Positions 8,356 through 52,106 of a stretch of DNA of 64,000 bases are shown here, one piece after another. Positions within the stretch are counted from its first letter, which is position 1, and every line of letters starts with the position of its first letter. A program made the position numbers and the translations under genes. The notes below the pieces were generated by a model. The model did no database searches, had not been told where the DNA came from, and saw nothing but the letters and a program-made list of their open reading frames with translations. This DNA is from Fusobacterium sp. JB019. Its GTDB lineage: Bacteria; Fusobacteriota; Fusobacteriia; Fusobacteriales; Fusobacteriaceae. The stretch is from the NCBI GenBank assembly GCA_030673965.1, contig JAUTCN010000003.1:1-64000 (forward strand). Direction: 5' to 3'.

Positions 8356-8369
8356 GTTGTCTAGGCAAC
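8356..8369. promoter_or_regulatory. Palindromic operator candidate upstream of the hemerythrin operon
   Basis: GTTGTCTAGGCAAC is an inverted repeat of seven-base half-sites with one mismatched pair. It stands at about -35 relative to the extended -10 of the rightward operon and just upstream of the pepT -35. The TTG-N6-CAA form is that of CRP/FNR-type sites (the family that includes HcpR/Dnr nitric-oxide regulators). The regulator is not in the window. Confidence 0.45.
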
Positions 8370-8388
8370 ATCTTTCTTTTATTTTTAA

Positions 8389-8397
8389 TGCTAAAAT
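8389..8397 (+). promoter_or_regulatory. Extended -10 promoter of the DUF1858-hemerythrin operon
   Basis: TGCTAAAAT, 36 bp before the ATG at 8434. The usual -35 position holds no TTGACA-like box; the palindrome at 8356-8369 ends there, which suggests activator-dependent transcription. Confidence 0.5.
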
Positions 8398-8433
8398 GAT
8401 TTCATAAATATAAAACTTTAGGAGGTAATTTAA

Positions 8434-8637
8434 ATGATAAAAATTAATAAAGATATGATAATTGGTGATGTTATAAGAGAAAACATTAATTTAATGGATA
8501 CTTTTTCTGATAATGGAATGCATTGTGTTGGATGTCCTTCAGCTCAAATGGAATCAATCGAAGATGCTTGTACTGTCCATGGATTAGATGTAAATATTTT
8601 AATTAAAGCTCTTAATAAAGAAAATAAAGGAGAATAA
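8434..8637 (+). CDS. DUF1858 (ScdA/RIC N-terminal-like) small protein
   Basis: A 67-residue protein matching the DUF1858 / ScdA_N domain. The pattern is a short strand (IGDVIREN), a helix, a G-M-H-C-x2-C turn (C31, C34) followed by SIEDAC (C46), and a final helix. In Staphylococcus ScdA this domain is fused to the N-terminus of a di-iron hemerythrin domain that repairs iron-sulfur clusters. Here it is a separate gene, three bases upstream of an unknown gene and in an operon with a hemerythrin. SD TAGGAGG is well placed. The redox or metal role of the cysteines is inference. Confidence 0.82.
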   Translation: MIKINKDMIIGDVIRENINLMDTFSDNGMHCVGCPSAQMESIEDACTVHGLDVNILIKALNKENKGE

Positions 8638-8640
8638 TTT

Positions 8641-9234
8641 ATGAGTAAAATGTTAGGCCCAATACATTACTGGCTATATAACAAAATTTTATTTCAAGAA
8701 AAAATTATACAACTTATAATACAAAACTCTAAAAATCATTGGAATAATAATTTAAATAATGAATTAATATCAAAATGCGGTGAAATTAAAGATATCCCAC
8801 TAGAAAATATAATTGATATTTCTAATATTCATGGATTTCTTCAAGAAAAAATAAGTATTGTTGAAAAAAGATTAGCTTTTGTTGTTACAAAGTTATTAGA
8901 AAATGAAAATATCAATATAGATGATATTATTAATAATTTAAGCTTCAATTATAATTTTGAAAATATAAATACACCTAAAGATATATACAATGAACTTGAG
9001 AAAATATTTTTAAATGGTATGCCTTGTGACAGAATTTTAATTATTAATGAAGAAGAGGAAGATACTATTACTTTCTCAGAAAAAGTCAATATTCATAAAA
9101 AATATTGGGATCTCTTTTTAGGAAATTCTAAAAATTATTATTTAATAAAAAATAAAATAATTGAAAATTTATTAAATAATACAAATTTTAAATATGAAGT
9201 TATACAAGAAAAAAATATAATCAGGAGGAAATAA
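8641..9234 (+). CDS. Uncharacterised helical protein between DUF1858 and hemerythrin
   Basis: I do not recognise a family. The 197-residue product is very asparagine- and isoleucine-rich and predicted mostly helical, with no signal peptide or membrane segment. Visible features: an N-terminal MLGPIHYWLYNKI stretch, a helix IHGFLQEKISIVEKRLAFVV (~65-85), an acidic turn EEEED (~137-141) and two cysteines (~42 and ~131). It starts three bases after the DUF1858 stop and ends two bases before the hemerythrin start, whose AGGAGG lies inside its 3' end. That tight packing implies a shared role with them, perhaps as a structural partner or metal donor; this is inference only. Confidence 0.7.
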   Translation: MSKMLGPIHYWLYNKILFQEKIIQLIIQNSKNHWNNNLNNELISKCGEIKDIPLENIIDISNIHGFLQEKISIVEKRLAFVVTKLLENENINIDDIINNLSFNYNFENINTPKDIYNELEKIFLNGMPCDRILIINEEEEDTITFSEKVNIHKKYWDLFLGNSKNYYLIKNKIIENLLNNTNFKYEVIQEKNIIRRK

Positions 9235-9236
9235 TT

Positions 9237-9785
9237 ATGTATGGAATAGATTTATTAGTAGAAGAACATAATAATATTCTTAGAATGAAAAATGCCATTA
9301 GAAAAATATGTATTAAAATTTTAGAAGGTGATAACCTAAATATAGATAAATTTGAAAAAATTATTGATTTTGGAAAAAATTATGCTGATAAACATCATCA
9401 TCAAAAAGAAGAAAAAATTCTCTTTAAAGTAATGATTGAAAAATTAGGACCTGTTGCAAATACTTTAATAAAAAATGGAATGCTTGTAGAACATGATTTA
9501 GGTCGTTTACATATGATGCAATTAGTAGATGCTACTAATAAATATAAAAAAAATCCTAAAACTGAATATAAAATGGATATTATCTTTAATGCTCTTGCAT
9601 ATGGAGATTTATTACAAAGACATATTGATAAGGAAAATATAGCCGCTTATAATTACGCTGATAGAGTTCTTTGTAAAGAAGATAAAATTTTCATAAATAA
9701 AGAAACTGAAATTTTAGAAAATGAAGCTAGTAAAAATAAATTTCAAAAGAAATATCTTAAGATATTAGAAGAAATAGAAAAATAA
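9237..9785 (+). CDS. Hemerythrin-domain (HHE) protein, RIC/YtfE-like
   Basis: A 182-residue four-helix-bundle hemerythrin. Likely di-iron ligands follow the RIC/YtfE spacing: H11, the H53-H54-H55 cluster with E58/E59, H86 (and H92), and H129-x3-E133. Family members bind a non-haem di-iron centre and repair iron-sulfur clusters after nitrosative or oxidative damage, or bind oxygen or NO. In ScdA the DUF1858-like domain and this domain are one chain; here they are separate genes of one operon. Start supported by AGGAGG eight bases upstream. Last gene of the operon; a short AT-rich gap follows. Confidence 0.85.
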   Translation: MYGIDLLVEEHNNILRMKNAIRKICIKILEGDNLNIDKFEKIIDFGKNYADKHHHQKEEKILFKVMIEKLGPVANTLIKNGMLVEHDLGRLHMMQLVDATNKYKKNPKTEYKMDIIFNALAYGDLLQRHIDKENIAAYNYADRVLCKEDKIFINKETEILENEASKNKFQKKYLKILEEIEK

Positions 9786-51978: not shown

Positions 51979-52080
51979 AAAAAATCGATCCCCTGGACTC
52001 TTATATTTTGCCCAGACGGTCGACTAATCTCAAACTATATTCCTTGTGGTCATTTCCACTTATCCGTCAGTTATATAGCT
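51979..52080 (-). promoter_or_regulatory. ZTP/ZMP (pfl-motif) riboswitch with terminator platform
   Basis: On the minus strand the leader holds the pfl-motif aptamer. ACUGACGG (52064-52071) is followed by a GUGG/CCAC hairpin and the 3' conserved element CCGUCUGGGCA (52009-52019). ACGG pairs with CCGU. The 3' element is reused in a terminator hairpin (51986-52022: CUGG with CCAG and flanking pairs) followed by a U-run (51979-51984). ZMP binding would favour the aptamer and stop termination. The aptamer closely resembles, from memory, the crystallised F. ulcerans ZTP riboswitch. Confidence 0.9.
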
Positions 52081-52106
52081 GTTTATTTCTTTCTACCCTT
52101 GCATAG

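Follow-up and report, generated by a model that had tools for sequence, protein, structure and literature searches.

A predicted HcpR-controlled operon joins a DUF1858 protein and a RIC-like hemerythrin to an undescribed protein family in Fusobacterium

Introduction

What is the role of an unrecognised protein encoded between a DUF1858 protein and a hemerythrin? The question is raised by a locus of Fusobacterium sp. JB019, at positions 8,356 to 9,785 of the window (the whole stretch of DNA analysed, 64,000 nucleotides at positions 1 to 64,000 of contig JAUTCN010000003.1, forward strand). The genome that carries it is a 2.27-Mb draft. We call the 197-aa middle protein MID, a working name.

How strict anaerobes protect their iron-sulfur enzymes from NO is so far known mainly for Hcp. 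We propose, at a probability of about one half, that the three genes form a single HcpR-activated NO-response operon, a split RIC-type repair system with MID as its third component. HcpR-type regulation and a functional linkage of the operon, taken separately, appear very probable. The MID family has no family model and often stands under the promoter type of hcp, which would make it a concrete missing component; moreover, the role of each RIC-like part becomes testable because the operon splits the parts into individual genes. The HcpR regulon and RIC chemistry are of already known kinds, and the available text of a 2005 paper notes in general terms that hemerythrin-like genes are frequent in HcpR regulons (PMC1274295). 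New here, relative to the portions of the open-licence literature searched, in which we recognised no paper on any of them, are the MID family, a promoter rule of 22 bp and the distribution of RIC-like parts over separate genes.

Results

A tight operon behind a predicted HcpR-type box

The locus comprises the following features:

8356..8369: predicted HcpR-type operator GTTGT-CTAG-GCAAC, a variant of GTTGC-N4-GCAAC (motif count in the own genome and boxes of relatives)
8392..8397, plus strand: -10 hexamer TAAAAT, 22 bp past the palindrome
8420..8425, plus strand: ribosome-binding site AGGAGG of the DUF1858 gene (direct reading of the sequence)
8434..8637, plus strand: DUF1858/TIGR03980 protein, 67 aa, with a CVGCPS motif (C31, C34) and matches to PF08984 and TIGR03980
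8641..9234, plus strand: MID, 197 aa, undescribed family (conservation alignments, confident model)
9237..9785, plus strand: RIC-like hemerythrin, 182 aa (PF01814 match; ligands H11, H54xxxE58, H86, H129xxxE133)

The first-pass annotation, made from the letters of the window, had described a tight operon with 2–3 bases between genes, and ORF calling gives just that: 3 bp between DUF1858 and MID and 2 bp between MID and the hemerythrin gene. All three genes are under purifying selection (dN/dS of ~0.16 for DUF1858, ~0.22 for MID and ~0.15 for the hemerythrin, against the closest relative found, G005).

The palindrome GTTGTCTAGGCAAC at 8356–8369, with arms GTTGT and GCAAC, is one mismatch off a perfect 5+4+5 structure. 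By itself it proves nothing, because the window shows no excess over shuffles of the 14-mer with up to three mismatches; up to two mismatches, the site at 8356 is the sole match in the window. Across the own genome, GTTGYNTANGCAAC has five forward-strand copies versus none for the reversed control, and each of the five is followed by TATAAT or TAAAAT exactly 22 bp downstream. Their targets are the DUF1858-MID-hemerythrin operon, hcp (Prismane match, E 1.7e-180), a frdX-like 4Fe-4S gene, a two-gene cupin unit and a gene for a 237-aa protein. An HcpR candidate of 222 aa (cNMP_binding and HTH_Crp_2), encoded at G000:C11:32477-33145, adjoins the hcp and frdX-like genes. Relative L002 carries GTTGTATATGCAAC at the position matching the window box, and in two congeners (G001 and G004) the box lies in the gap between hcp and a divergent CRP/FNR-type gene. 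The 14-bp palindrome GTNNC-N4-GNNAC is common to hcp and the hcpR neighbourhood, and the operon's own site follows it with one arm mismatch. The palindrome is, on this evidence, a predicted HcpR-type box of the CRP/FNR family and the NO response. The suspicion that a palindrome replaces the -35 region and is read by a CRP/FNR-type redox or NO regulator was well placed: the box stands 22 bp before the -10, a genome scan finds hcp among the five sites, and the candidate regulator beside hcp points to HcpR.

Class II activation by CRP/FNR proteins takes place from a site centred near -41.5. With the -10 at 22 bp, and if transcription starts 7 nt past the -10 as we assumed, the box would be centred at about -41.5. 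An FNR box was rejected, the TTG-N6-CAA geometry of the window being unlike TTGATnnnnATCAA, the FNR consensus quoted in PMC1274295 (partial text). The arrangement resembles the HcpR2 regulon as set out in the available part of that paper (Rodionov et al. 2005, PMC1274295) in having a CRP/FNR-type regulator beside hcp, a 14-bp box centred on N4 and both hcp and a frdX-like gene as targets. The box itself differs, GTTGC-N4-GCAAC here versus GTAAC-N4-GTTAC there, the published HcpR2 box being GTAACnnnnGTTAC; deviating motifs are reported in the same text where recognition-helix residue 181 differs. In this part of the paper we found no mention of the three-gene operon or of MID.

Several smaller observations concern the other boxes and hcp. 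Behind a box and a 22-bp -10, the cupin unit (L110 2389–3129, G000:C2:75388-76128) encodes a Cupin_2 protein together with one of 108 aa that matches no Pfam family; relatives of its proteins occur in 4 of 85 MID loci, and in L067 and L074, which belong to one genome, they lie directly upstream of an Hcp-DUF1858 fusion. The 237-aa protein (L111 2974–3767, G000:C2:271973-272766), also without Pfam match, has the same box and -10 and would be a further regulon member. A second hcp copy in the own genome (L162, G000:C2:485664-487286) is 77% identical to the first and has no perfect HcpR-type box upstream; G005 likewise has a second copy (L163).

To which signal would the operon respond? Hemerythrins bind O2, and the operon might answer oxygen or superoxide rather than NO, its boxes then marking a general stress response of anaerobes. 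This we consider very unlikely, because the box is common to hcp, a core NO-response gene, and because hcpR of C. difficile protects against nitrosative but not oxidative stress (PMC12915319, available text). C. difficile, together with D. vulgaris as recounted in the accessible part of PMC1274295, suggests instead that the HcpR signal is NO or nitrite, as our proposal of an NO-response operon requires.

Boxes and regulators across genomes

We assembled 85 MID loci, namely the window, five loci of family members and, from the 80 top-ranked of 324 relatives found by tblastn, 79 more, each relative a public contig stretch encoding a MID relative; L066 was left out of the 80 because ORF calling found no MID in it. 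Near-duplicates remain among the 85: L067 and L074 share a chromosome, and Lachnoclostridium and Selenomonas are recurrent.

A perfect GTNNC-N4-GNNAC box was found at most 300 bp upstream of MID or an operon gene in 38 of the 85 loci (27 of these boxes being within 300 bp of MID itself), compared with 0–2 loci for other spacers between 0 and 12. Allowing each of the four observed box types a single mismatch raised the count to 55/85, the window's own site included, versus 0–4 at other spacers between 0 and 10; at two mismatches the difference is much weaker (70/85 versus 27–45 at other spacers). The remaining 30 MID loci have no box even with one mismatch. Thus, the idea that the palindrome precedes orthologous operons stands for the 55 loci, 38 of them perfect, and falls for the 30.

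The spacing to the -10 recurs as well. Among boxes of MID operons, 42 of 54 have at least five of the six TATAAT bases at offset 22, and no other offset from 12 to 30 exceeds 4/54. A box (one mismatch allowed) also occurs in 45 of 57 hcp upstream regions, with a -10 at offset 22 in 37 of 46 boxes against 6 for the next best offsets; these MID and hcp counts are not independent, since an upstream region counts in both sets when hcp is the first gene of a MID operon, and since certain hcp genes entered twice. Box and -10 counts across MID loci and hcp thus make MID a frequent member of the predicted HcpR regulon.

Does the regulator change with the box? The loci encode 55 CRP/FNR-type proteins, 36 of which have a readable recognition helix and a distinct sequence. 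The own regulator, present in two loci, reads RTALSR. All 15 rows with a helix of the form R[ST]A[LM][STC]R come from loci with a GTTGC box; one of these GTTGC loci (L034) additionally contains GTAAC and an RPSLSR regulator. The ten RPSLSR rows go with GTAAC in eight cases (L034 and L038 of these also with GTTGC) and with GTATC in two, and the six R[TS]SMCR rows with GTAGC in five, the sixth lacking a perfect box in its locus. The last five helices pair as RETISR with GTAAC (L044), RASMCR with GTTGC (L226), RSSMTR with GTTGC (L075), RPSMSR with GTATC (L088) and RPSMCR with none (L054). Recognition-helix type therefore appears mostly to track box type, in a pairing that is loose because it was matched per locus and because the rows are partly non-independent. 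Such regulator/box pairs offer a natural data set on how recognition-helix specificity changes in the CRP/FNR family.

The DUF1858 protein and the hemerythrin

The first gene product matches PF08984 (E 2e-19) and, at E 2.8e-26 and 91 bits against a cut-off of 45, TIGR03980, the "hybrid cluster protein-associated redox disulfide domain". Its CxxC pair (C31, C34) is kept in 22 of 22 stand-alone DUF1858 proteins aligned. The first-pass annotation had equated DUF1858 with the ScdA N-terminal domain, an identification that we reject: the ScdA N-terminal domain is PF04405 (ScdA_N), which this ORF matches at just E 0.021, below the family cut-off. TIGR03980 is named for its association with Hcp; here the domain is a separate small protein, not fused to Hcp.

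The third ORF is a PF01814 hemerythrin (E 8e-12) whose domain begins at residue 3. Across 55 aligned proteins, H11 is kept in 54 and each of H54, E58, H86, H129 and E133 in all 55, as is E85, the Glu preceding H86. The order of ligands is that of the RIC protein YtfE (H84, H129, E133, H160, H204 and E208), and their steps of 43, 4, 28, 43 and 4 residues compare with 45, 4, 27, 44 and 4 in YtfE, where E159 likewise precedes H160 (PMC9268430, available portion). The RIC-like spacing read from the window is thus borne out, and by its predicted di-iron ligand set the operon hemerythrin is RIC-like. It differs from the RIC proteins YtfE, ScdA and DnrN in that a fused N-terminal ScdA_N domain (DfCCgG) is absent, a separate DUF1858 of another Pfam family being encoded instead, and in the additional MID. 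According to the accessible text of the same review, the N. gonorrhoeae RIC also lacks ScdA_N (PMC9268430).

MID is a conserved family with a candidate four-residue site

The middle protein had been called unrecognised, and so it remains: the window MID matches no Pfam or NCBIfam family and no solved structure in the PDB by sequence. Among the other members of the 85, two Pfam and four NCBIfam families each have a single weak match in one protein, with best E values of 0.0031 and 0.00043; we took these as chance. In annotated plasmid records, MID is a "hypothetical protein" at five of six places and unannotated at the sixth.

Across the 85 members, H9, H64, E75 and GMPCD126–130 are invariant and H152 nearly so, H9 and C129 falling in stretches that were used for finding the best 80 loci. 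In a sample found by profile, 15 of 20 matches keep H9, H64, E75, C129, D130 and H152. Of 120 MID-like proteins, 112 retain all of H9, H64, C129 and H152. Two lack H152 alone (L006 and L079), one (L208, its gene also in L187) loses only H64 and C129, and five lose all four yet retain E75, R77, G126 and W156. These five (L188, L190, L192, L180 and L182) are remote and alike enough for one clade, so that the loss was probably one event; in the DNA examined at L180–L183 we found no perfect box. Because they are lost together, H9, H64, C129 and H152 are candidates for one site. We tentatively suggest, at a probability below one half, that MID holds a metal or haem via these residues. Two distant MIDs (L179 1285–1941 and L184 1237–1932) carry a Cys/His-rich insert past the H152 region (CEGGHSHDHH and CEGNHDHDDH, respectively).

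MID is commonly linked to hemerythrin, DUF1858 and Hcp

Hemerythrin lies directly 3′ of MID in 53 of 85 loci and DUF1858, as its own gene, directly upstream in 18; the complete DUF1858-MID-hemerythrin order occurs in 13. These counts are lower bounds because short contigs cut neighbourhoods, and they are separate ones, as one cluster of 45 loci mixed Hcp and DUF1858, joined by fusions. At 23 of 85 loci, the DNA examined contains no hemerythrin, DUF1858 or Hcp gene. That MID always neighbours DUF1858 and hemerythrin, as the first-pass annotation put to the test, is therefore too strong: the linkage is common, not universal.

Hemerythrin was also rejected as a strict partner. Among 30 genomes with a hemerythrin-less MID locus, many of them drafts, a hemerythrin was found elsewhere in 10 and not found in 20 (E 1e-8), so MID is not strictly dependent on it. 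Conversely, none of the 24 family members without a MID match yielded the operon-type hemerythrin (E 1e-8). Thus, in this sample, the hemerythrin is not seen without MID, and MID is present without the hemerythrin.

Within the genus, two of seven genomes have MID and all seven have hcp; among 37 relatives hcp occurs in 24, including all five with MID. A match in L007/G003 (E 0.0096) was dropped as it sits in a 629-aa protein, which we take to be MnmG. In a sample of 196 genomes from the class to which Clostridium magnum belongs, 17 have MID, and the loci show that the predicted operon recurs in Clostridia and Fusobacteriaceae. G032, a member of the window's own family, and Cetobacterium somerae (Fusobacteriaceae) have MIDs with 100% identity across 212 residues. 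In Peptoclostridium acidaminophilum, DUF1858-MID-hemerythrin lies beside an oppositely oriented iron-sulfur carrier gene. A Paraclostridium bifermentans plasmid (L233, NZ_CP094935.1 77447–84070) reads MID-hemerythrin-NifU-DUF1858-hcp, with hcp, ferredoxin, hemerythrin and cupin genes on the other side, and is probably a compact nitrosative-stress gene group. NifU beside MID-hemerythrin on this plasmid points to iron-sulfur assembly; among the 85 loci, NifU occurs in one (L024). In three family members (L003, L005 and L006), a small protein precedes DUF1858-MID, and in L006 this protein has the nitrite/sulfite reductase domains.

Could MID simply serve Hcp? As a cofactor-free adaptor or assembly factor for Hcp or the hemerythrin, it would use its conserved residues to hold the fold or dock a partner. 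Three findings would suit an adaptor: Hcp is found in 28 of 85 MID loci, and in 22 it lies on the strand of MID no more than 600 bp upstream; 8 of the 85 have a fusion of DUF1858 to Hcp directly before MID; and the subfamily that has lost the four residues neighbours hcp at three of its five loci. However, the residues lost jointly are His and Cys, whereas E, R, G and W remain, and L179 and L184 gain their His/Cys-rich insert. We regard the adaptor as possible but on the unlikely side.

The predicted fold of MID resembles H-NOX and TRAPP weakly

Models of the window MID and of the L061 homologue have mean pLDDT values of 94.7 and 95.5, and H9, H64, C129 and H152 are each placed at or adjoining a helix start. 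The best Foldseek match in the PDB is an H-NOX for both (E 0.018 and 0.045, respectively). In the VIA-align list, which contains many close repeats, 43 of 50 rows for the window MID and 48 of 50 for L061 are chains of H-NOX/guanylate cyclase or TRAPP. Against a stated background Z of 7–8, the best H-NOX scores Z 6.7 (rmsd 3.7, 144 aligned) for the window MID and Z 7.9 (3.8, 154) for L061, and the best TRAPP Z 8.4 (rmsd 3.9, 110 aligned).

Membership in the H-NOX family, suggested by these lists, was rejected by three tests. PF07700 is not among the matches of the 85 MID members at E 0.01; a profile comparison with nine clostridial H-NOX domains gave an hhalign probability of 0.35%, no better than column-shuffled controls; and the haem-pocket motif YxSxR, invariant in the nine aligned H-NOX domains, occurs in 0 of 85 MIDs. 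V4R membership was rejected too: PF02830 matches none of the 85 members and nothing in 31 genomes, and C129 is the only invariant Cys, the next Cys column reaching 41/85, compared with the four-Cys zinc site of PoxR/Thor-TRAPPC3 (PMC10933270, partial text). TRAPPC3, V4R and H-NOX are described there as structurally similar, with ligand cavities and, in some, zinc sites. Thus, most rows in the structural lists of MID are H-NOX and TRAPP chains, with no sequence support, and with Z near background and a null profile comparison the H-NOX/TRAPP (Bet3)/V4R fold group is plausible, not proven, for a model that resembles H-NOX/TRAPP weakly.

MID could also be a sensor of NO or redox state, dedicated to tuning the hemerythrin or HcpR in the way H-NOX proteins tune their partners, and not a repair part. 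Besides the H-NOX and TRAPP rows, a sensor is favoured by MID genes that have their own box but, in the DNA examined, no hemerythrin, DUF1858 or Hcp (for example L018, L027 and L064). Yet MID itself sits under HcpR-type boxes and has no sequence relation to H-NOX, and we judge a sensor unlikely. The repair proposal can be taken one step further, to a reading that is doubtful as a whole: MID would be a new NO-handling class with an H-NOX/TRAPP fold and, instead of the YxSxR haem pocket, a His3-Cys site for iron or haem. Together with DUF1858 and the RIC-type hemerythrin, itself a stand-alone protein, it would build a three-part machine that repairs iron centres on behalf of Hcp and of the HcpR response in anaerobes.

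A model for the operon

How might the three proteins work together? Promoter architecture and gene grouping rest on direct sequence evidence; for the remaining mechanism, we infer the following. NO or nitrite would lead HcpR to activate the promoter from the class II position, jointly turning on hcp, the frdX-like gene, the cupin unit and the three-gene operon. Hcp would then remove NO, and the products of the operon would repair iron centres. In this repair, the hemerythrin may do the work of the di-iron half of a RIC (YtfE/ScdA) protein and DUF1858 that of the thiol/disulfide half, standing in for the fused ScdA_N domain of RIC. MID would be the third unit, with a fold like that of H-NOX/TRAPP and most likely holding metal (iron) or haem, and may bind NO or shuttle iron between damaged iron-sulfur proteins, Hcp for example, and the hemerythrin.

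Elsewhere in the window, a ZMP/ZTP riboswitch (RF01750, 57.8 bits) was detected on the minus strand at 52003–52084.
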